From contig JAUYMY010000006.1 of the NCBI GenBank assembly GCA_030699385.1, forward strand, positions 1 through 64,000: a stretch of DNA of 64,000 nucleotides, given 5' to 3'. The notes beneath the pieces were generated by a model that ran no database searches, was not told where the DNA came from, and saw only the letters and a program-made list of their open reading frames with translations. This stretch comes from Methylobacter sp. (GTDB lineage Bacteria; Pseudomonadota; Gammaproteobacteria; Methylococcales; Methylomonadaceae). Below, in pieces: positions 10,491 through 42,135 of the stretch (position 1 is its first letter; every line of letters begins with the position of its first letter). The translations under genes were made by a program, and so were the position numbers.

Positions 10491-10551
10491 GTGGGAGCGG
10501 CCACTCGGCCGCGAACTGCATCATTGTTCGTGGCCGGGTGGCCGCTCTCAC
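10491..10551. repeat. REP-like GC-rich palindrome, copy 1
   Basis: GTGGGAGCGGCCACTCGGCC, a short spacer ending in GTTCG, then GGCCGGGTGGCCGCTCTCAC form an imperfect hairpin of about 61 bases. Closely similar copies lie at 40043-40105 and, more diverged, at 37526-37587. All three are intergenic. It could also act as a terminator for rdgC. Confidence 0.8.
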
Positions 10552-23643: not shown

Positions 23644-24024
23644 ATGCCCGTGGATAACTCAGCAAAAAAAATTTTGATCGTCGATGACAGCAAAGTATCG
23701 AGAATGTTAATCCGCTCACACATTATGGCTCAGCGCCCGGACTGGATCACGTCTGAAGCTGCCTGCGGCGAAGACGCTATCGCAATGGTCGACGTCGAGC
23801 AACCTGACTTCTGCACCATGGACATCAACATGCCGGGCATCCCAGGGACTGATGCCGCCGAACAAATATTAGCCAAACACCCTTCGATAAAAATCGTTAT
23901 TTTCTCGGCAAACATTCAGGAAACACACCAGGAACGCGCACGCTCCCTGGGCACAATATTGGTATCAAAACCGGTCACAGAAAAATCAATTACCCTCGCC
24001 TTAGATTATTTTGCAAAAGCTTAA
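23644..24024 (+). CDS. CheY-like response regulator
   Basis: The 126-residue single receiver domain has the acidic pocket (VDDSK), the phospho-accepting aspartate in FCTMDINMPG, the SANIQ switch residue and the lysine in VSKPV. It has no output domain, so it must act through protein contacts. It directly abuts the CheC-like gene and then a GGDEF gene, forming one operon. Dephosphorylation by the neighbouring CheC-like protein is a reasonable inference. Confidence 0.92.
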   Translation: MPVDNSAKKILIVDDSKVSRMLIRSHIMAQRPDWITSEAACGEDAIAMVDVEQPDFCTMDINMPGIPGTDAAEQILAKHPSIKIVIFSANIQETHQERARSLGTILVSKPVTEKSITLALDYFAKA

Positions 24025-24639
24025 ATGAATAGCCTCAGCGAACTTCATCTTGATGCCTTAGCAGAAGTATTCAGCATCGGCGCAGGCCGTGCTGCATTGA
24101 GCCTGAGCGAGATTGTCGGGGACGAAGTGCGCATTTCCGTGCCCTCGGTGCAACTGATTAACGCAGAAGACATCAACGCCGCCACATTATCACTCAACAG
24201 CGGCCGGTTTGGCGCGGTCAATCAACACTTTAGCGGCCCCTTTAATGCCGAAGCCGTGCTGTTATTTACTGAAGAACAAGCCTTAAAAATCGTTAGCGAT
24301 ATGATGGGCTCGCAAATGGCGCCCGAGGAACTCGCAGAATTTGAACATGAAGCCATGTGCGAATTAGGCAACATCATCCTAAACGCCTGCTTGTCGGCAA
24401 TGGCCGACATACTCAGCTTTACCCTGGAAAGCTCACTGCCCCATTACACCGTAGCTTCAGCTGACGAGATACTGTATAAACTCCGGCAGGATAGCAACCA
24501 ACCTTATGTCATGGTGCTGCACATTGACCTTGCCATCGAAAAACGGCATACCGCCGGCAATCTGGTATTTCTGCTCAGTTCCGCCTCACTGACCAATCTG
24601 GTCTCTCATGTCGACCAATTTCTTGGCAAACTTTCATGA
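24025..24639 (+). CDS. cheC: CheC-family phosphatase
   Basis: The 204-residue protein belongs to the CheC/CheX/FliY phosphatases, which dephosphorylate CheY. The second half has an intact active-site pattern (EHEAMCELGNI, with Glu and Asn in the expected spacing). The first half (ALAEVFSIGAGRA) lacks the catalytic Asn, so only one of the two CheC sites appears functional. It starts immediately after the response regulator stop and overlaps the GGDEF gene by four bases. Confidence 0.87.
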   Translation: MNSLSELHLDALAEVFSIGAGRAALSLSEIVGDEVRISVPSVQLINAEDINAATLSLNSGRFGAVNQHFSGPFNAEAVLLFTEEQALKIVSDMMGSQMAPEELAEFEHEAMCELGNIILNACLSAMADILSFTLESSLPHYTVASADEILYKLRQDSNQPYVMVLHIDLAIEKRHTAGNLVFLLSSASLTNLVSHVDQFLGKLS

Positions 24640-25697
24640 CCGATAGCCTACTTACCCAGCCTGCTAACCTGCATACAGCCGATGTCCGCAGCACTGTAAT
24701 ACAGACGGGAACAATCGCGCCAATGCCCTCAAGCGCAAAGCATTTTGAGATAGCAGACATCTGCAACGCACTCAATATCGGTCTGTGTGTTGTTAATGCG
24801 GCGAGACAGGTATTACTCTGGAATCATTGGATCGCCAAACACAGCGGCATCGAAGAAGCCGACGCATTGAACTTGCCACTTGAACAGGTGTTTTCGGAAC
24901 CCGTATCTCCCGCCTTCCTGTCCGCACTGAAAAACTGTCTAGCGCACAAACTGCCGGTGGTTTTATCCACCGCACTGCACCGCACACCGCTGCCCTTGTA
25001 TCATAAAATCGAGCCAGACCTGCAACAAGCCCGCATGTATCAATCAATCAGCATGGCGCCGATTCGCTCACAGCACAATGAAGCCTGCTGCCTGATTCAA
25101 ATTACCGATTCCAGCAACTCGATTAAACGCGAAAAAATACTGCGCTCCCATTCGGAAATACTCAAAAAAGAAGCCACCACAGACGGCCTGACCGATATTT
25201 GCAACCGCCGGTTTTTCGACGCCCACTACGAAATAGCTGTAGCCGACGCTAAAAGACAAAAATACCCGCTATCCATTTTCATGGTCGACATCGATTTTTT
25301 TAAACCTTATAACGACCATTACGGACACATCGCCGGCGACACCGTCATCAAATTGGTCGCCAACGCATTAAAATCACAATTATCACGCGCCACCGACATC
25401 GTCGCACGTTACGGCGGCGAAGAATTCGTGCTGGTCATGCCGCATTTAGCTCAGAACATCGCCGAACAATTTGCCGAAAAACTCAGAGTTGCTGTTTTTG
25501 ACTTGGCCATACCGCATATAAAATCCCCCTTATTTCATCAAATAACCATCAGTATCGGGGTCTGCTCCGGCATTCCGGAAAATAATGACAATCTGTTAAA
25601 CAAAGCAGACACCGCGCTCTATCAAGCCAAACAAAATGGCCGCAATCAATCCATCTTGCTCTCGCTTTGCGAATCCAAAGAATATCTGGAACAATAG
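24636..25697 (+). CDS. Diguanylate cyclase with PAS-like sensor region
   Basis: The 353-residue protein synthesises cyclic di-GMP. A PAS-like region spans about residues 45-165 (GLCVVNAARQVLLWNHWI). A GGDEF domain follows at about 180-345, with the active motif GGEEF and an RATD inhibitory site five residues before it, so product inhibition is expected. It has no transmembrane helix. It overlaps the CheC gene by four bases, placing receiver, phosphatase and cyclase in one operon. Confidence 0.93.
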   Translation: MTDSLLTQPANLHTADVRSTVIQTGTIAPMPSSAKHFEIADICNALNIGLCVVNAARQVLLWNHWIAKHSGIEEADALNLPLEQVFSEPVSPAFLSALKNCLAHKLPVVLSTALHRTPLPLYHKIEPDLQQARMYQSISMAPIRSQHNEACCLIQITDSSNSIKREKILRSHSEILKKEATTDGLTDICNRRFFDAHYEIAVADAKRQKYPLSIFMVDIDFFKPYNDHYGHIAGDTVIKLVANALKSQLSRATDIVARYGGEEFVLVMPHLAQNIAEQFAEKLRVAVFDLAIPHIKSPLFHQITISIGVCSGIPENNDNLLNKADTALYQAKQNGRNQSILLSLCESKEYLEQ

Positions 25698-34548: not shown

Positions 34549-35541
34549 CTACTTGCAGGCCGCCAACAAAAATTCTGTTAGCCGTTGTTCCAACCAGTAG
34601 CGCGGCCTGAACGGAATAGCGCCGGAAATAAAACCGACATGGCCGCCGTGCCGAGTAAATTCCAAGCGAACTTGCGGCGATATTTCACTGGCTTCCGGCA
34701 AAACCGCCGCCGTCATAAAAGGATCGTCAAGCGCCTGAATCAACAGCGTAGGCACGGTAATCGCGTGCAGATATTGCCGCGAACTGGAGCGCCGGTAATA
34801 ATCATGCACATCAGCAAAACCGTGCAATTTGGCCACCACCCTATCGTCATATTGCCAGAACGAATGAATCACCGACAAATCGCCTAACGCCCTGATTTTC
34901 ATAACTTCTTCAGTGCGACCCAGATGAGTCAAATGGCGCAATTTATCGTGCATATAGGTCTTTAGCTCACGCAATAAATTAATGCGGTACAGCCGTGAAA
35001 ATCCGCCATCGAGTTTTGTCGCACAAACGCCCAGCAATAACGGTACGGAAACGGCGGCAGCGGCAAATAAATCCACTTGCCCACCCCGTTCGCCCAGCCA
35101 CTTTAACAGCACATTACCGCCCAAAGAAAAACCGACCGCGCCTAATCGCGTGTCGGGTTCGCGTTGGCGCAAGGTTTGGTAGAAAAAATGCAGGTCTTCG
35201 GTTTCGCCGGAATGATAACAACGTGCGCTGTCATTCGGCGTTCCGCTGCAACCGCGAAAATTAAGCACCGCGCTGCGCAAGCCCTGTTTATGCAAGACAC
35301 ATTGCAAGCCTTTGATATAGCCCGACTGCGAACTGCCGGTCAAACCGTGCAACAAGATAATCAGCGGTTGCGTACCGCTGCCGCAATAATCGATGTCGAT
35401 AAAATCATGGTCGGGCGTGATTAAACGTTCGCGGCGATATTCCGGCGGATCGGGCACGCGCCGCAACAAGGCCGGATACAGCGTCTGTAAATGACTGTTG
35501 TTTAACCACCAAGCAGGCTTGAACCTTGTGCTATGCGTCAT
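34549..35541 (-). CDS. Alpha/beta hydrolase (YheT family)
   Basis: The 330-residue cytoplasmic hydrolase of the YheT/EMB8 family has LHGLTGSSQSGYIK (oxyanion region), FRGCSGTPN, the nucleophile elbow VGFSLGGNVLLKWLGE, an aspartate in QALDDPF, and a histidine in RHGGHVGF. The start is taken at 35541 (MTHSTRFKPAWWLNNSHLQTLYPALLR), which matches the family. The open frame extends further upstream only as an out-of-frame shadow of the kinase gene. It overlaps the kinase stop by 11 bases, so they are cotranscribed. Confidence 0.9.
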   Translation of the reverse strand: MTHSTRFKPAWWLNNSHLQTLYPALLRRVPDPPEYRRERLITPDHDFIDIDYCGSGTQPLIILLHGLTGSSQSGYIKGLQCVLHKQGLRSAVLNFRGCSGTPNDSARCYHSGETEDLHFFYQTLRQREPDTRLGAVGFSLGGNVLLKWLGERGGQVDLFAAAAVSVPLLLGVCATKLDGGFSRLYRINLLRELKTYMHDKLRHLTHLGRTEEVMKIRALGDLSVIHSFWQYDDRVVAKLHGFADVHDYYRRSSSRQYLHAITVPTLLIQALDDPFMTAAVLPEASEISPQVRLEFTRHGGHVGFISGAIPFRPRYWLEQRLTEFLLAACK

Positions 35542-37456
35542 GAACGCTGTCCACAAGCGGCAATTCAAACCAAAACACACAGCCCTGCCCTTCTCCCGCC
35601 GACTCCACGCCAATACGGCCGCCGTGATGCTCGACAATTTTGCGGCATAAGGCCAAACCGATGCCGGTGCCTTCAAATCGGCTGCGCGCCTGCAAGCGCG
35701 AAAATACTTTAAACAACCGGTCCATGTGGCTCGGCTCGATACCGATACCCTGATCGCGCACTTCCACCCGTAGCGCTTGCGCCGTGACCATCCCACAAAC
35801 CTCAACCTGCGGCGGTTGATTTTCCGAGTGATATTTCAGCGCATTGCCAATCAGGTTCTGCAACAAGCACGTTAATTCATCGCGACTGGCAAACAACTCA
35901 GGCCATTCGCCGCCAACTTTAATGTCGCCGGCGCAGGCGCAGAGTTCAGGATTAAGAAAAGCCAGCGCTTCATCTAACGAAGCTTTGCTGCTAATCCGGG
36001 TTTTGGCTTCGGATTTACGCCCTACCCGCGAATAATCCAGCAACGATAAAATCATCGCATCCATGCGTTTGGCACCATTCATCGCGAAATCAAGGCACTG
36101 TTGGTTTTCTTCATTCAAGGTGCCGGCCAAGGCGTTTTCAATCAACGATAAATAACTGGTCACCATGCGCAGCGGTTGGCGCATATCGTGAGAGGCCGCG
36201 TAGGCAAATTGTTCCAACTCGGCATTAGAACGGGTCAATTCGGCTTCAGTATATTTGCGCTGGGTAATATCAGTATGCGTTCCAATCAGCCGTAACGGCT
36301 TACCCTCCGCATCACGACTGACCACAATGCCGCGATCCAATATCCATTTCCAGTTGCCATCCTTGCACTTGACCCGATGCTCAGAATGATAAGTGGGCGT
36401 TTGTCCGTCAAAATACGCCCGCACAGTGGCCTGTGCGGGCGCCCTGTCATCGGGGTGAATGCGTTTTTCCCATTCATCCAGACTATTACCCACTTCGTCC
36501 TCATTAAAGCCCAGCATTTCTTTCCAACGTTTGGAAAAAAACACAGTGCCCTCTGCAACATTCCAATCCCAAAGGCCATCGCCCGAGCCCTCAACGGCAA
36601 ATTTCCAACGGTATTCGCTTTCACGCAACGCATTTTCCATCTGTTTGCGCTCGGTAATATCGCGAACAAAAGCGCTAAAAAAATAGCGCCCCTCTATCTC
36701 CAATGCGTCGATAGCCAGCTCCATGGGGAATTCCGAGTTATCGGCACGCAGGCCTATCACTTCCAGACGGGTACCTATGACGTTCGATACGCCGGTTGTC
36801 ACAAATCGCAATAAACCTTGCTGATGCTTTTCCCGGTAATCAGGCGGAACAATTAAATCAGCTACTTTGCTCCCTAATGCCTGCTCGCTGGAATAACCGA
36901 AAATATGTTCAGCCTGCGTATTCCAAGTCATTATCTTGCCGTCATGATCCATTGTGATAATGCCATCCAACGCCGAATCCATTAATAGCCGGGTACGGAC
37001 AACATTTTCTTGTAACTCAATATTGGCAGTATGCAGCGCCTGTTCGGCTATTTTTCTTTGCTGTATCTCAGCTTGTAATTCTGCGATGGTCGGTAAAGAT
37101 AACGCGCGAGGAACAACCCATAACATCAGCGTAGCGGCAATGAGCGAAATAATCGCGGTAATGCCTTTAAGTACACCATCCAGCCAATACAAAGGTATCC
37201 AGATCGTAATGGCCGACAATAAATGGGTAGTGCCGCAAGCTACAATGAATGCGGCAAACAGGGCGACCAGCGCCGGATAAGGCAAATCTTTTCGTCGCCG
37301 AAGAAAATAAACCAAGGTCAGTGGAATGGAATAATAAGCCAGCGTAATCAGTAGATCCGAAATCACATTTAACCACAGCAATAACGGACTCCACGACAAG
37401 CAATAGCCATGCGGAATGAGGTCTTTAATACCAAAAAAGTCAATCAGTGCTTGCAT
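35531..37456 (-). CDS. Histidine kinase with ethylene-receptor-type N-terminal domain
   Basis: The 641-residue sensor kinase begins with three hydrophobic helices (about residues 20-125) that match the ethylene-binding domain of plant ETR1. Asp34, Tyr41, Ile44, Pro45, Cys74 and His78 reproduce ETR1 Asp25, Tyr32, Ile35, Pro36, Cys65 and His69 with identical spacing. The cysteine and histidine bind the copper cofactor in that family. Two PAS domains follow (about 170-290 and 290-420), then HisKA with ASHDMRQPLR and a HATPase domain (NLIGNALKYHSE, GIGLAL). An upstream ATG at 37552 lies in a REP-like repeat and is rejected. Confidence 0.9.
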   Translation of the reverse strand: MQALIDFFGIKDLIPHGYCLSWSPLLLWLNVISDLLITLAYYSIPLTLVYFLRRRKDLPYPALVALFAAFIVACGTTHLLSAITIWIPLYWLDGVLKGITAIISLIAATLMLWVVPRALSLPTIAELQAEIQQRKIAEQALHTANIELQENVVRTRLLMDSALDGIITMDHDGKIMTWNTQAEHIFGYSSEQALGSKVADLIVPPDYREKHQQGLLRFVTTGVSNVIGTRLEVIGLRADNSEFPMELAIDALEIEGRYFFSAFVRDITERKQMENALRESEYRWKFAVEGSGDGLWDWNVAEGTVFFSKRWKEMLGFNEDEVGNSLDEWEKRIHPDDRAPAQATVRAYFDGQTPTYHSEHRVKCKDGNWKWILDRGIVVSRDAEGKPLRLIGTHTDITQRKYTEAELTRSNAELEQFAYAASHDMRQPLRMVTSYLSLIENALAGTLNEENQQCLDFAMNGAKRMDAMILSLLDYSRVGRKSEAKTRISSKASLDEALAFLNPELCACAGDIKVGGEWPELFASRDELTCLLQNLIGNALKYHSENQPPQVEVCGMVTAQALRVEVRDQGIGIEPSHMDRLFKVFSRLQARSRFEGTGIGLALCRKIVEHHGGRIGVESAGEGQGCVFWFELPLVDSVHDA

Positions 37457-37525: not shown

Positions 37526-37587
37526 GTTGGGAGCTCCGACCTCAGCGAACAATACACGCTAATTCGCGACCGGGTGGCCGCTCCCAC
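37526..37587. repeat. REP-like palindrome, diverged copy
   Basis: The left arm TGTTGGGAGCTCCGACCTC is degenerate, but the right arm ATTCGCGACCGGGTGGCCGC followed by TCCCAC matches the copies at 10491-10551 and 40043-40105. It lies between the CBS gene end and the kinase start, both on the minus strand. Confidence 0.7.
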
Positions 37588-37596
37588 AAAGCCGAG

Positions 37597-38013
37597 TTAG
37601 CTTATTTTACAAGCCTTATACATCCCATCCAGCACCAGTGAATTGGGGCTGATCATGCCGATAATCTTGCCGTTTTCAATGACCGGCGCTCTGACCAAAT
37701 TATAATCGGCAAATAAGCGCGAACAATAACGGATGTCCATATCGGGACGCACCGAAATCACCGGCTTGTTCATAATTTCATACACATTGACCCGGTTTGG
37801 CGCACGGTCTTTGGCCAGCACATGACGGGCAATATCACCGGAATTAATCATGCCGTATTCGTCATCATCATGGCGTTTATTAACAATCAGTACGGCGGTT
37901 TTCAACGCTTTCATCTTTTTCAGCGCATCTTCTACCGTGGCAATGCCGTCGATGGTGCCGAAATCGGTTTTCATCACATCCCTAACACGAATGACAGTGC
38001 GTGGCTCAATCAT
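37597..38013 (-). CDS. Two-CBS-domain protein
   Basis: The 138-residue protein consists of a tandem CBS pair: RVRDVMKTDFGTIDGIATVEDALKKM, then YEIMNKPVISVRPDMDIRYC and ending MISPNSLVLDGMYK. Such pairs bind adenine nucleotides and regulate partners. The ATG at 38013 is chosen because GAGG precedes it and it overlaps the preceding PII-like stop by 8 bases; the alternative is a TTG at 38028. It is the last gene of the DUF1538-PII-CBS operon. Confidence 0.88.
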   Translation of the reverse strand: MIEPRTVIRVRDVMKTDFGTIDGIATVEDALKKMKALKTAVLIVNKRHDDDEYGMINSGDIARHVLAKDRAPNRVNVYEIMNKPVISVRPDMDIRYCSRLFADYNLVRAPVIENGKIIGMISPNSLVLDGMYKACKIS

Positions 38014-38362
38014 ATTTTTTATCCTCAAGTTCTTGGGTTAATAGTTCAACCTGATGCATGACGCCAACGGCATCCTCGACATCAATTTGTATGGCAATAC
38101 CGGTGCCGGGTTTGGTGTCGAATTGCGCCACCTTGGCGATGGTTTCCAAAATCTGCCGACTCAGATGTTCCTCGACCAAAAACAACAACATATCGCGTTG
38201 CGCTTCCAGAGTCAGACCGAAAAATGTTTTCGACTGCTTGGTGCCTTCGCCACGGGCATTATTGACCACGGTTGCGCCTTTTGCGCCGTTTTTACGGGCG
38301 GTGTCGAGCACGAGGTCAGTTTTGTCATCTTCGACAAAGGCGATAATTAACTTGAAATGCAT
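38006..38362 (-). CDS. PII-like signalling protein
   Basis: The 118-residue protein has the ferredoxin-like PII fold: MHFKLIIAFVEDDKTDLVLDTARKNGAKGATVVNNARGEG, then the KTFFGL segment in the T-loop position, and FLVEEHLSRQILETIAKVAQF. The canonical uridylylated tyrosine of GlnB is not present, so it is a PII-like member rather than GlnB/GlnK. The ATG at 38362 has AGGA before it; a further ATG at 38374 overlaps the upstream stop as ATGA. It is between two DUF1538 transporters and a CBS protein. Confidence 0.8.
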   Translation of the reverse strand: MHFKLIIAFVEDDKTDLVLDTARKNGAKGATVVNNARGEGTKQSKTFFGLTLEAQRDMLLFLVEEHLSRQILETIAKVAQFDTKPGTGIAIQIDVEDAVGVMHQVELLTQELEDKKYD

Positions 38363-38370
38363 GGTTTTCC

Positions 38371-39150
38371 TCATGGTTTGGATGAAAGACTGTGTTTGTT
38401 AAGCCATTGTGCGATTTGCGCGTAACCTAAAACAGCAATAATAGGACATAAACTGGCAAAGGCGATCAAGCCGAAGCCATCTAACAAGGGATTACGGCCG
38501 GGAACGGTAGAAGCCAGCCCCAAACCTAACGCGGTTACTAAGGGCACGGTGACCGTAGACGTAGTGACGCCGCCCGAGTCATAAGCCAGGCCAATAATCA
38601 ATTTAGGCGAGAACAGGGTTTGCACAATGACAATGATGTAGCCCGCAATAATAAAATAATAAAGCTCGGTACCCGTGACAATGCGATAAGCGCCCAAAGC
38701 AATGCCAAAGGCCACACCAATAGACACAGCAAAGCGCAAACCCCAGGCACGAATAGCGCCGCCGGAAATCTGTTCGGCTTTCATCGCCACCGCCAGCAGC
38801 GACGGTTCGGCCAGCGTAGTGGCAAAGCCGATGCTGGCCGCGAAGATATACACCCAATAATACGCTTGCCAAGCCACATTCTGTTGAGCCGGATCTATAC
38901 CCAAAAACTCCGGCGTGGTCAGTTGGTTGGCCATCAGCGTCCCCAGCGGAAACAGCGCCATATCCAGGCCTTCCAAAAAAAAGGCAATGCCGAGCAACAC
39001 ATAAATAAAGCCAATCAGCATTTTTTTCGGGTGCGCCACCGGTTTGCGGATAACCAGCAGCTGAAAGCCAACAATGATCGCGGCAATCGGCAAAATATCC
39101 CGGCAGGTTTCCAGCAATACCCCCGCAAATTGGCTCAGCCACCCGCTCAT
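38371..39150 (-). CDS. DUF1538 membrane protein, second copy
   Basis: The 259-residue inner-membrane protein has about seven hydrophobic helices and repeated signatures [14 protein letters not shown] and [28 protein letters not shown]1538 is a predicted transporter family of unknown substrate. It overlaps both neighbours by four bases, so the cassette DUF1538-DUF1538-PII-CBS is tightly coupled. Confidence 0.88.
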
Positions 39151-39875
39151 ATCAGCATCCCGTAAGCCATTACAAAAACGATGGGGGTCAATGAGGCAAA
39201 GGCAATCAGACCAAAGCCGTCGGTCATAGGATTGCGCCCTTTAATGGCGGTGGCTAAACCCACGCCCAACGCGGTCACCAGCGGCACGGTAATGGTTGAA
39301 GTGGTAACGCCGCCGGAATCATAAGCGATGCCGATGATTTCAGGCGGCGCAAACGGGGTCAATACTATCACCCCGCAATACCCGGCAATAATCAGGTAAT
39401 ACAACGGCCAGCCCCGGATAATCCGCAATACACCGACCAAAATGGCAAAACCGACCGATAAAGCCACAGTCAAGCGCAGCCCCAAGGCATAAGAAGTAAT
39501 CGCCTCATCGCCGGGTTCGATAATACCGGCTTTAGAGGCAATATTGGCCGCTTCCTGGGCGACCGCGATCAACGCCGGTTCCGCCACCGTGGTACCAAAA
39601 CCCAAACAAAACGCAAAAGTCAACAGCCAGAACAAACTGCCTTTGCTGGCAAAGGCATAAGCCATTGATTCGCCAATCGGAAACAAGCTTTGTTCAAGCC
39701 CCTGAATAAACAAGGTAAGACCGAGCACCACAAAAAGAGTGCCTACAATTAAATTGCCGACATCGGGAATAGGCTGACGGATCACCAACACCTGGAATAC
39801 TAAAACCACTGCAAGAATAGGCGCCAAGTCTAAAAAGCTGTTGAACAGTTGTTTAACAAAAGCGTTTTTTATCAT
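39147..39875 (-). CDS. DUF1538 membrane protein, first copy
   Basis: The 242-residue paralogue of the next gene has [17 protein letters not shown] and [25 protein letters not shown] in the same positions, and several helices. The two copies probably form a heteromer (inference). It is the first gene of the operon. Its upstream gap of 351 bases carries a REP-like repeat (40043-40105) and no clear gene. Confidence 0.88.
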
Positions 39876-40042: not shown

Positions 40043-40105
40043 GTGGGAGCGGCCACCCGGCCGCGAATAGTGCGCGATTGTTCGCGGACGGGTGGCCGCT
40101 CCAAC
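40043..40105. repeat. REP-like GC-rich palindrome, copy 2
   Basis: GTGGGAGCGGCCACCCGGCC, then CGCGAATAGTGCGCGATTG, then TTCGCGGACGGGTGGCCGCT form a long imperfect hairpin nearly identical to 10491-10551. The surrounding gap 39876-40226 also holds two similar CGTTCCCA...GTTCTAGCG-type segments (near 40005 and 40125) but no gene. Confidence 0.8.
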
Positions 40106-40226: not shown

Positions 40227-40775
40227 CTAAACCTTAACCGGATTTTTATCTAATTTTCGCTGCAAGGTGCGCCGGTGCATATTTAATGCTCTGGCTGCTG
40301 CGGAAATATTGCCGTCATGCTGCATCATCACTTTTTGCAAATGCTCCCATTCTAAGCGCTTAACCGATAATGGATTTTCGCTGATAGATACCGAGGAATC
40401 GCCTTCATTTTTATGCAAGGCATTAACAATTTCGTCGGCATTGGCCGGCTTGGTCAAATAATGCGTAGCGCCCAATTTTATCGCCTCAACTGCCGTGGCG
40501 ATGCTGGCAAAGCCGGTTAGCATCACACAAGAGGTATTGTCATCTAGCGAAATGAGTTTTTTGACTAATTCCAAGCCGGATTCGTGGCCGATACGCAAAT
40601 CAATCACCGCATATTCAGGCAAATAGCTTTCGGCAATGGCGATGCCGGTGTTGACATCATTCGCCACCAGCACTTCATAATTTCTTCTTTCTAAAGCGTT
40701 TTTTAACACCTTACAAAAAGTCTCGTCATCATCCACCAGCAACAGCCGTGGTTTATCGGTTTCCTGCGTCGTCAT
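40227..40775 (-). CDS. regA: Redox response regulator RegA/PrrA/ActR
   Basis: The 182-residue regulator has a receiver domain (LLLVDDDETF, phospho-Asp in AVIDLRIGHESGLELV, MLTGFAS, LTKPANADEI). A Fis-type helix-turn-helix follows at the end (GNISAAARALNMHRRTLQRKL). This compact form is diagnostic of RegA. It regulates respiration and energy genes in response to the redox state sensed by RegB. Its start overlaps the regB stop by 23 bases. Confidence 0.95.
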   Translation of the reverse strand: MTTQETDKPRLLLVDDDETFCKVLKNALERRNYEVLVANDVNTGIAIAESYLPEYAVIDLRIGHESGLELVKKLISLDDNTSCVMLTGFASIATAVEAIKLGATHYLTKPANADEIVNALHKNEGDSSVSISENPLSVKRLEWEHLQKVMMQHDGNISAAARALNMHRRTLQRKLDKNPVKV

Positions 40776-42135
40776 TATGGTTCTCTGTATGTAAAAGAGG
40801 CAGGCTAATTTCTACATTAGCCCCGCCCGACTCACTGTTATAAAAATGAATTTTCCCACCCAAGCGGTTAATGGTCGAATAAGTTAAGAATAAACCCACA
40901 CCCAAGCCCCGTTTTTTACTGACAACCGGTTGTTTGCCGGCAAAATCGATTAATTCCGGCGGCAAGCCGGGGCCATAATCGCTGATTCTAATAATGGCGT
41001 GTTCTAAATCCCAAGAGGCATGAAGCTCAATGCCTTTTTCCGGCAGCGTCGCTTCAGCGGCATTATTTAAGATATTGATAATCGAGTGGGTCAGCGTTAG
41101 CTCAGCGATAATTTTTGCCTGCATATCAATATCCGGGCTAATAAATAAATTGAGCTTTGCCGTCGATTTGTGGGTACGCCATTGCTTAATAACATCATCA
41201 ACATAATCGGCCATTAACATGGCACTGCCGGATTCGGCGCGCAGTTCGCCGGCTGATGCCGACATCACCGAAAGAGCCGTTTTACAGCGATTGACCTCCT
41301 GCTGCATGATAGCCAATTTTTCGTGCAAATCGGCAAAATGATGAATCGGATAATCCTGCTCAAGCTCATGCGCCAGAATGGCAATAGTCCCTAATGGCGT
41401 GCCCATATCGTGTGCGGCACTCGCCGCCAATGTCCCAAGAGCAACCACGCGCTCATCCCTTAACGCATTTTCGCGCGCTTCCGCCAGATTGCGCTCTTGC
41501 GCCTTCAGCGTTTTAGCCAGCTCAACGACGAAAAAGGCGACCAATCCGGCGCTAAAAACAAAGCCAAACCACATGCCAAAAATATGCAAATTAAAATAAT
41601 GGGTATCCCGCATAATGTGAATATGCTGCATCATTTCATAATTCGCGGCACGGGAATCCATCATTTCAGCTTCGGGCATGTGCGGCTCAATTGACGGCAA
41701 CGGAATATTAAAGCCAATTAATGCGGTATACATCGACGAGGTTAAAATCACCATATACCAGGCATAAGATTGGTGCAGCATAATCGCGGTAATAATCAGC
41801 GGCAATAGGAATACCCAAGTAATGGGATTAGATGCGCCGCCGGTTAAATATAACAAGGCGGTAATGGCAAAAACATCAATAACCAGATGAGAAAAAATCT
41901 CCAGTTCCGTGACCGGCTCGTCTGTCTGCAGGCGCATCGAGGTATAAATATTAACCGCGACGACAGACAATACAACCAGCCAGAGCGGTTGTTCAGGTAG
42001 ACGGATATTCAGGCCGTATATCGATAAGACAATCAGTATGATTTCACTGAGTATCATTAAATTTCTTAATATAAACAACCACTTCAAGTTTTGTCGAGCA
42101 GAAAACTCTGATTTATGCGAGGCGTATGAAAGCAT
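40753..42135 (-). CDS. regB: Redox sensor histidine kinase RegB/PrrB/ActS
   Basis: The 460-residue membrane kinase has six hydrophobic helices in about residues 20-215. The quinone-interaction motif appears as GGASNPI near residue 100. The H-box AAHDMGTPLGTIAILAHEL follows, with the redox cysteine region NRCKTAL about 45 residues later. The ATPase domain has NILNNAAEA and DYGPGLP, then GLGVGLFL. It senses the quinone pool or oxidation state and phosphorylates RegA. Confidence 0.95.
   Translation of the reverse strand: MLSYASHKSEFSARQNLKWLFILRNLMILSEIILIVLSIYGLNIRLPEQPLWLVVLSVVAVNIYTSMRLQTDEPVTELEIFSHLVIDVFAITALLYLTGGASNPITWVFLLPLIITAIMLHQSYAWYMVILTSSMYTALIGFNIPLPSIEPHMPEAEMMDSRAANYEMMQHIHIMRDTHYFNLHIFGMWFGFVFSAGLVAFFVVELAKTLKAQERNLAEARENALRDERVVALGTLAASAAHDMGTPLGTIAILAHELEQDYPIHHFADLHEKLAIMQQEVNRCKTALSVMSASAGELRAESGSAMLMADYVDDVIKQWRTHKSTAKLNLFISPDIDMQAKIIAELTLTHSIINILNNAAEATLPEKGIELHASWDLEHAIIRISDYGPGLPPELIDFAGKQPVVSKKRGLGVGLFLTYSTINRLGGKIHFYNSESGGANVEISLPLLHTENHNDDAGNR

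Follow-up and report, generated by a model that had tools for sequence, protein, structure and literature searches.

An ETR1-type sensor domain on a Methylobacter histidine kinase and a candidate route to cyclic-di-GMP

The kinase gene and its sensor domain

We analysed a stretch of 64,000 nucleotides from Methylobacter sp. (contig JAUYMY010000006.1, assembly GCA_030699385.1; hereafter the window), and describe here a sensor histidine kinase of 641 residues that is encoded on its minus strand at 35531-37456, with the ATG at 37456 and the stop codon at 35531-35533. Because six related loci share the start pattern MQxLID, this ATG is favoured over a longer start at a TTG that is obtained mechanically. 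Pfam matches give the domain order ETR1_N-PAS-PAS-HisKA-HATPase_c, all on the minus strand: ETR1_N (PF25487) covers residues 26-121 (37094-37381), the first PAS about residues 156-269 (36650-36991; profile match at 156-250), the second PAS (PAS_3) residues 305-394 (36275-36544), HisKA residues 414-478 (36023-36217) with the presumed phospho-acceptor His423, and HATPase_c residues 526-634 (35555-35881). The ETR1_N match reaches an E value of 6.5e-36 and 122.9 bits against a cut-off of 27, and HisKA and HATPase_c are also above their cut-offs, with His423, the N-box and the G1 and G2 stretches intact. This agrees with a preliminary description made from the sequence, which had placed two PAS domains and a kinase behind the sensor domain. 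The protein has PAS in place of GAF and a single cysteine (Cys19) ahead of helix 1, two features in which it departs from the plant receptors.

We found that six residues of ETR1 recur at a constant offset of nine, as previously described: Asp34, Tyr41, Ile44, Pro45, Cys74 and His78 of the kinase correspond to Asp25, Tyr32, Ile35, Pro36, Cys65 and His69 of ETR1. A seventh binding residue, Ile62, is matched by Ile71, so that all seven are identical at this offset. The codons from Cys74 to His78 (CGTTH), which include the presumed Cu(I) ligands, lie at 37223-37237 on the minus strand according to this alignment, and the lysine of helix 3 is Lys97. The ETR1 reference used for the alignment itself scores as ETR1_N (E 1.5e-33). 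Over an ungapped block of 60 residues (kinase residues 25-84), 28 are identical to ETR1, whereas 20,000 shuffles averaged 4.9 identities and reached 14 at most. An AlphaFold2 model built from 7 sequences, of modest confidence (mean predicted local distance difference test score, pLDDT, 71.5; predicted template modelling score, pTM, 0.48), predicts a three-helix fold for the domain with helices at residues 24-54, 61-84 and 90-119, and places Cys74 and His78 together in the second of these rather than in different helices. A fold search against solved structures returned nothing at E 0.001. By profile, residue-for-residue alignment and predicted helices, the kinase is assigned an ETR1-type sensor domain, and the reading of the locus as an ethylene-receptor-type sensor on a bacterial histidine kinase is borne out to that extent.

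Bacterial sensors of this kind have been described and tested before (SynEtr1, AzoEtr1); the kinase adds another member. Arabidopsis ETR1, to which all seven residues are matched, has a pair of cysteines at its N-terminus, whereas the window kinase has one; it also has GAF rather than PAS and a receiver domain at its C-terminus. On plasmid ABSP7_p1 of Azospirillum brasilense Sp7, in a stretch without annotation, we found an open reading frame that matches the published AzoEtr1 in its length (525 residues) and in D35, C75, H79 and K98. The window domain and this one share 48% identity in an alignment of 118 residues, and the two proteins have in common the ETR1_N-PAS-histidine kinase layout, the same seven residues, a PHGxC motif and the helix-3 lysine (Lys98 in AzoEtr1, Lys97 in the window kinase). 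AzoEtr1 has one PAS, however, and the window kinase two; in the accessible text of PMC11819568, AzoEtr1 is overlapped by a response regulator gene of its own, whereas none is adjacent to the window kinase. Residues 1-130 of AzoEtr1 bind ethylene when expressed in yeast, according to the same text; it also reports that ethylene lowers cyclic-di-GMP in A. brasilense by a pathway that it calls unknown. SynEtr1/UirS (slr1212) of Synechocystis likewise carries, by description, an ETR1-type N-terminal domain on a histidine kinase, but it is also a light receptor and its regulator slr1213 acts on transcription, as stated in the accessible parts of PMC6682694 and PMC5812497. The former describes cyanobacterial receptors as having one cysteine close to the N-terminus where plant receptors have a pair.

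Conservation and spread of ETR1_N

The conservation of the domain was surveyed in 64 distinct domains from 78 instances (loci L005-L112 and the window), retaining strong matches and dropping fragments and weak ones; the loci L005-L034 had been picked as best scorers. The equivalents of Ile62, Cys65 and His69 are kept in 64 of 64, that of Tyr32 in 63, Asp25 in 62, Pro36 in 61 and Ile35 in 57. Near-invariant as well is the PHGxC motif before helix 1 (Pro15 in 64/64, His16 in 63, Gly17 in 62 and Cys19 in 64), and Trp22 is kept in all 64. In a metagenome-assembled genome of Methylococcales, an ETR1_N kinase (L049, 7224-8720) has the Asp25, Ile35 and helix-3 lysine positions altered and the cysteine and histidine retained, a possible case of a change of ligand.

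In the order, PF25487 has a match in 103 of 201 genomes, and in 100 of these the match exceeds the cut-off. Of 274 genomes sampled from the class, 14 have a match at E 0.001 and ten have one over the cut-off, three of those ten from the same order; ETR1_N over the cut-off is thus found in 7 of the 271 sampled genomes outside it. All 103 matching genomes of the order fall in two families (f1 and f4). PF02461 is present in 166 of the 201 genomes; five families (f2, f3, f6, f7 and f8) have it in some members and ETR1_N in none, and the class sample holds six PF02461 genomes outside the order, none of which is among the ETR1_N matches. Because ETR1_N is confined to two families while PF02461 is wider, we conclude that its enrichment is by clade: ETR1_N does not track PF02461 beyond the clade, and co-occurrence with methane monooxygenase is unsupported as functional evidence.

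The window comes from a draft genome of 3.57 Mb (completeness 87.8%) that contains pmoA (PF02461) and is of the same genus as a second genome in our set (G115). This genome of the window encodes three ETR1_N proteins: the window kinase, a paralogous ETR1_N kinase of 542 residues on contig C14 whose gene is directly followed by a response regulator gene, and an ETR1_N-PAS-GGDEF-EAL protein on contig C56. Among the 12 genomes of the genus listed in the PF25487 survey of the order, 11 encode an ETR1_N protein that ends in GGDEF. A census of domain partners in 51 ETR1_N rows (some loci duplicated, and with profiles built from few local sequences) gave 38 with a kinase, 12 with GGDEF and one cut off. 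According to the accessible part of PMC7700396, ethylene-binding domains are predicted in many proteobacteria and cyanobacteria, joined to output domains of widely differing kinds, and ETR1_N-GGDEF proteins may already have been noted there. Among the papers listed by literature searches on ethylene receptors in methanotrophs, or on such receptors with GGDEF or cyclic-di-GMP, none deals with this system as judged from its title and the opening of its abstract, with subscription journals sparsely covered.

The locus in relatives

Upstream of the kinase, on the minus strand, lies a row of genes assigned by Pfam and recurring by synteny as its neighbours in the genus: a protein with two CBS domains (37597-38013), a P-II-like protein (38006-38374) and two DUF1538 membrane proteins, one UmpB-like (38371-39150) and one UmpA-like (39147-39875). 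We laid out 26 loci, some of them duplicates, and found that the order in Methylobacter relatives is DUF1538-DUF1538-PII-CBS, DsbB and then the ETR1_N protein. Ten ETR1_N loci among them are linked to this cassette (the window itself, as L127; L036, which equals L139; L037, L039, L041, L089, L092, L100, L128 and L129), of which L036 has only the CBS end on its contig and L041 stops inside the ETR1_N gene. Seven of the ten (L036, L037, L039, L092, L100, L128 and L129) continue downstream of the ETR1_N kinase, without a change of strand, with genes for a second kinase, for a response regulator of some 151 residues and for a REC-PAS-GGDEF cyclase; this second kinase is either of CHASE-PAS type or of HAMP-PAS type behind an NMT1-like gene. 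The preliminary description had noted that no response regulator is adjacent; this is true in the window, but in these seven loci one stands downstream, after the second kinase gene. In L089 there is no kinase: behind ETR1_N and PAS domains, residues 397-693 share 88.9% identity with the PAS-GGDEF portion of the L037 cyclase, and the gene is flanked on both sides by the same genes as in the L037 locus. We read this as a single deletion joining receptor to cyclase, in one genome and with misassembly possible.

DsbB stands between the CBS gene and the ETR1_N gene in nine of the ten loci. As an obligate partner it is weakened, since the window genome has its DsbB on another contig (C71) and DsbB is thus not tied to the kinase. 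One further locus (L040) has DsbB and an ETR1_N kinase, with no cassette or response regulator within the stretch at hand. In M. tundripaludum (L083), two tandem ETR1_N kinases (frames of 931 and 1163 residues) are present besides a cassette-linked one; strain SV96 of this species has a more complete version of the cassette locus than the window.

A response regulator and a cyclase of this kind are also encoded in the window genome, on contig C28 (6,998 bases), where they are 83% and 76% identical, respectively, to the response regulator and REC-PAS-GGDEF protein of L037. From 78 kinase cores we took 43 for a tree, namely the cores of ETR1_N proteins and those belonging to the cassette loci, C28, C14 and AzoEtr1. 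The window core falls in a clade of ten (support 99/99) that also holds L038, L040, L110, the C28 kinase and five ETR1_N kinases linked to the cassette; the forks inside this clade are mostly unresolved and the deeper joins carry a long-branch warning. L110, from another family, has a similar response regulator (67%) and receiver (60%) downstream. Since the window core clusters with both the cassette-linked kinases and the C28 kinase, the assignment of a partner rests on a history that is shared with the C28 kinase.

On the other side of the window kinase, an alpha/beta hydrolase gene (34549-35541, minus strand; Pfam), labelled YheT in the preliminary description, overlaps the end of the kinase gene with its start by 11 nucleotides. 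This overlap makes the co-transcription proposed there plausible, but the pairing is not found in relatives, and a scan for promoters and terminators did not stand out from shuffled sequence, with 10 sites of each kind where the shuffles averaged 7.3 and 9.0, respectively. As a conserved functional partner the hydrolase is rejected: used as a query it matched one of 78 loci (L086), at 6.5 kb from the ETR1_N gene there, and its only match among the 26 laid-out loci is the window's own stretch. Read from the window alone, the context (YheT as partner, no response regulator) misleads.

The paired DUF1538 proteins resemble UmpAB of Halomonas zhaodongensis, reported in the accessible text of PMC5484666 as a Na+/H+ antiporter; the words CBS, P-II and histidine kinase are absent from the main text of that source. 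Within the order, DUF1538 occurs in 120 of 201 genomes, in nearly every case as two copies, and none was seen by eye to adjoin ETR1_N outside the genus among the matches listed. It is plausible that the DUF1538/P-II-like/CBS set forms a nucleotide-controlled transporter. Next to the cassette, overlapping genes at 40227-42135 encode a response regulator (receiver and Fis-type helix) and a kinase, a pair that is presumably RegA/RegB-like. Palindromes at 37567-37587, 40043-40105 and 10491-10551, which we take to be REP-like, share CGACCGGGTGGCCGCTCCCAC (five matches with at most three mismatches, none in 100 shuffles); one palindrome arm lies inside the 140-nucleotide gap between the CBS and kinase genes, at the position where relatives have DsbB. 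About 10 kb from the kinase, the row at 23644-25697 encodes a single-domain receiver, a CheC/CheX-like protein (from its open reading frame alone) and a GGDEF-like protein (38% identical to a cyclase), possibly another cyclic-di-GMP set.

A candidate route from ethylene to cyclic-di-GMP

We consider it reasonably probable that the protein is a Cu(I)-ethylene sensor kinase that feeds cyclic-di-GMP through the response regulator and REC-PAS-GGDEF pair; ligand, metal and phosphotransfer route are what we infer here. By homology to the tested proteins, the three membrane helices would form the ETR1 site, in which Cys74 and His78 would hold Cu(I) and Cu(I) would bind ethylene. Binding would then shift the helix linker and the two PAS domains and alter the autophosphorylation of His423. 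The phosphoryl group would most likely pass to the single-domain response regulator and to REC-PAS-GGDEF, encoded on C28 in the window genome, a choice made because of the synteny, the kinase-core phylogeny and the one gene fusion. Ethylene would thereby change the level of cyclic-di-GMP and, through it, attachment or the extracellular matrix. More tentatively, and with the balance leaning slightly the other way, methanotrophs of Methylobacter type may sense ethylene through several ETR1-type receptors wired to cyclic-di-GMP turnover (ETR1_N-PAS-GGDEF-EAL, the kinase with response regulator and REC-PAS-GGDEF, and the fusion of one species), with the DUF1538/PII/CBS ion-transport cassette in the same response.

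Several observations weigh against this route. In the seven loci the second kinase separates the ETR1_N kinase from the response regulator, whose real partner it may be. Two loci (L131 in G015 and L130 in G145) have the cassette and the response regulator/cyclase module with kinases lacking ETR1_N, which indicates that the sensor slot at this locus is exchangeable and that the module is not tied to ETR1_N. On C28, the module follows a Phosphonate-bd-PAS kinase with a core similar to that of the window kinase. Within the genus, an ortholog of the response regulator is found in 13 of 23 genomes (with a chimeric query, E <= 1e-40), compared to 19 of 23 with a strong match to the kinase. Furthermore, 12 of the 38 ETR1_N kinase rows are without a receiver within 6.5 kb, including the kinases of L083, L085 and L101; the ETR1_N-PAS parts of one L083 kinase, L085 and L101 are among the closest to the window's (63-67%), yet these kinases are orphans. 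For the sensor itself, the modest structure model is of a monomer without copper, and a sequence search for a solved ETR1_N chain found none at E up to 1. The same orphan rows would suit an ethylene sensor with another partner or no dedicated one, whether the regulator 2.7 kb upstream (40227-40775), the regulator of the C14 paralogue or, in a kinase that is being lost, none. No response regulator adjoins the kinase in the window, the C14 paralogue has its own adjacent one, and the C28 module has its own kinase. However, the window kinase has intact motifs and a core that groups with those of the cassette-linked kinases, and the regulator at 40227-40775 has its own overlapping kinase gene, so that we regard this alternative as unlikely, if far from negligible.

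Instead of ethylene, the domain could sense Cu(I) itself, thiol redox state or some other small molecule, which we judge improbable. Methanotrophs regulate by copper, the domain has the extra PHGxC motif with its conserved Pro15, His16, Cys19 and Trp22, and DsbB lies beside the gene in nearly all cassette-linked loci. But PHGxC is also present in AzoEtr1, an ethylene binder, DsbB is not tied to the kinase in the window genome, and the domain keeps the positions of Asp25, Tyr32 and Ile62, which ETR1 requires to bind ethylene. That the resemblance to ETR1 is a chance or convergent likeness of three hydrophobic helices has some appeal in that membrane helices share composition, but it is already refuted by the 28 identities in 60 residues, twice the shuffled maximum, and by the profile match.

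For a methanotroph, ethylene makes sense as a cue because it is a toxic co-substrate. As stated in the accessible text of PMC11507031, ethylene inhibits methane oxidation in soils, and methane monooxygenase epoxidises it to a toxic product; ethylene co-oxidised to epoxyethane inhibits the growth of a methanotroph, and a methanotroph exposed to ethylene switches on a detoxification cluster. The word receptor is absent from the main text of that paper, and the ETR1-type receptor in methanotrophs is a ready candidate for an ethylene sensor. The neighbours in relatives, near cyclic-di-GMP genes, suggest how ethylene might alter cell behaviour: the ETR1_N-GGDEF proteins, the single fusion and the recurring order of kinase, kinase, response regulator and cyclase offer a concrete candidate route from ethylene to cyclic-di-GMP. 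The point worth following is that, in the genus, ETR1_N is repeatedly coupled to enzymes of cyclic-di-GMP.

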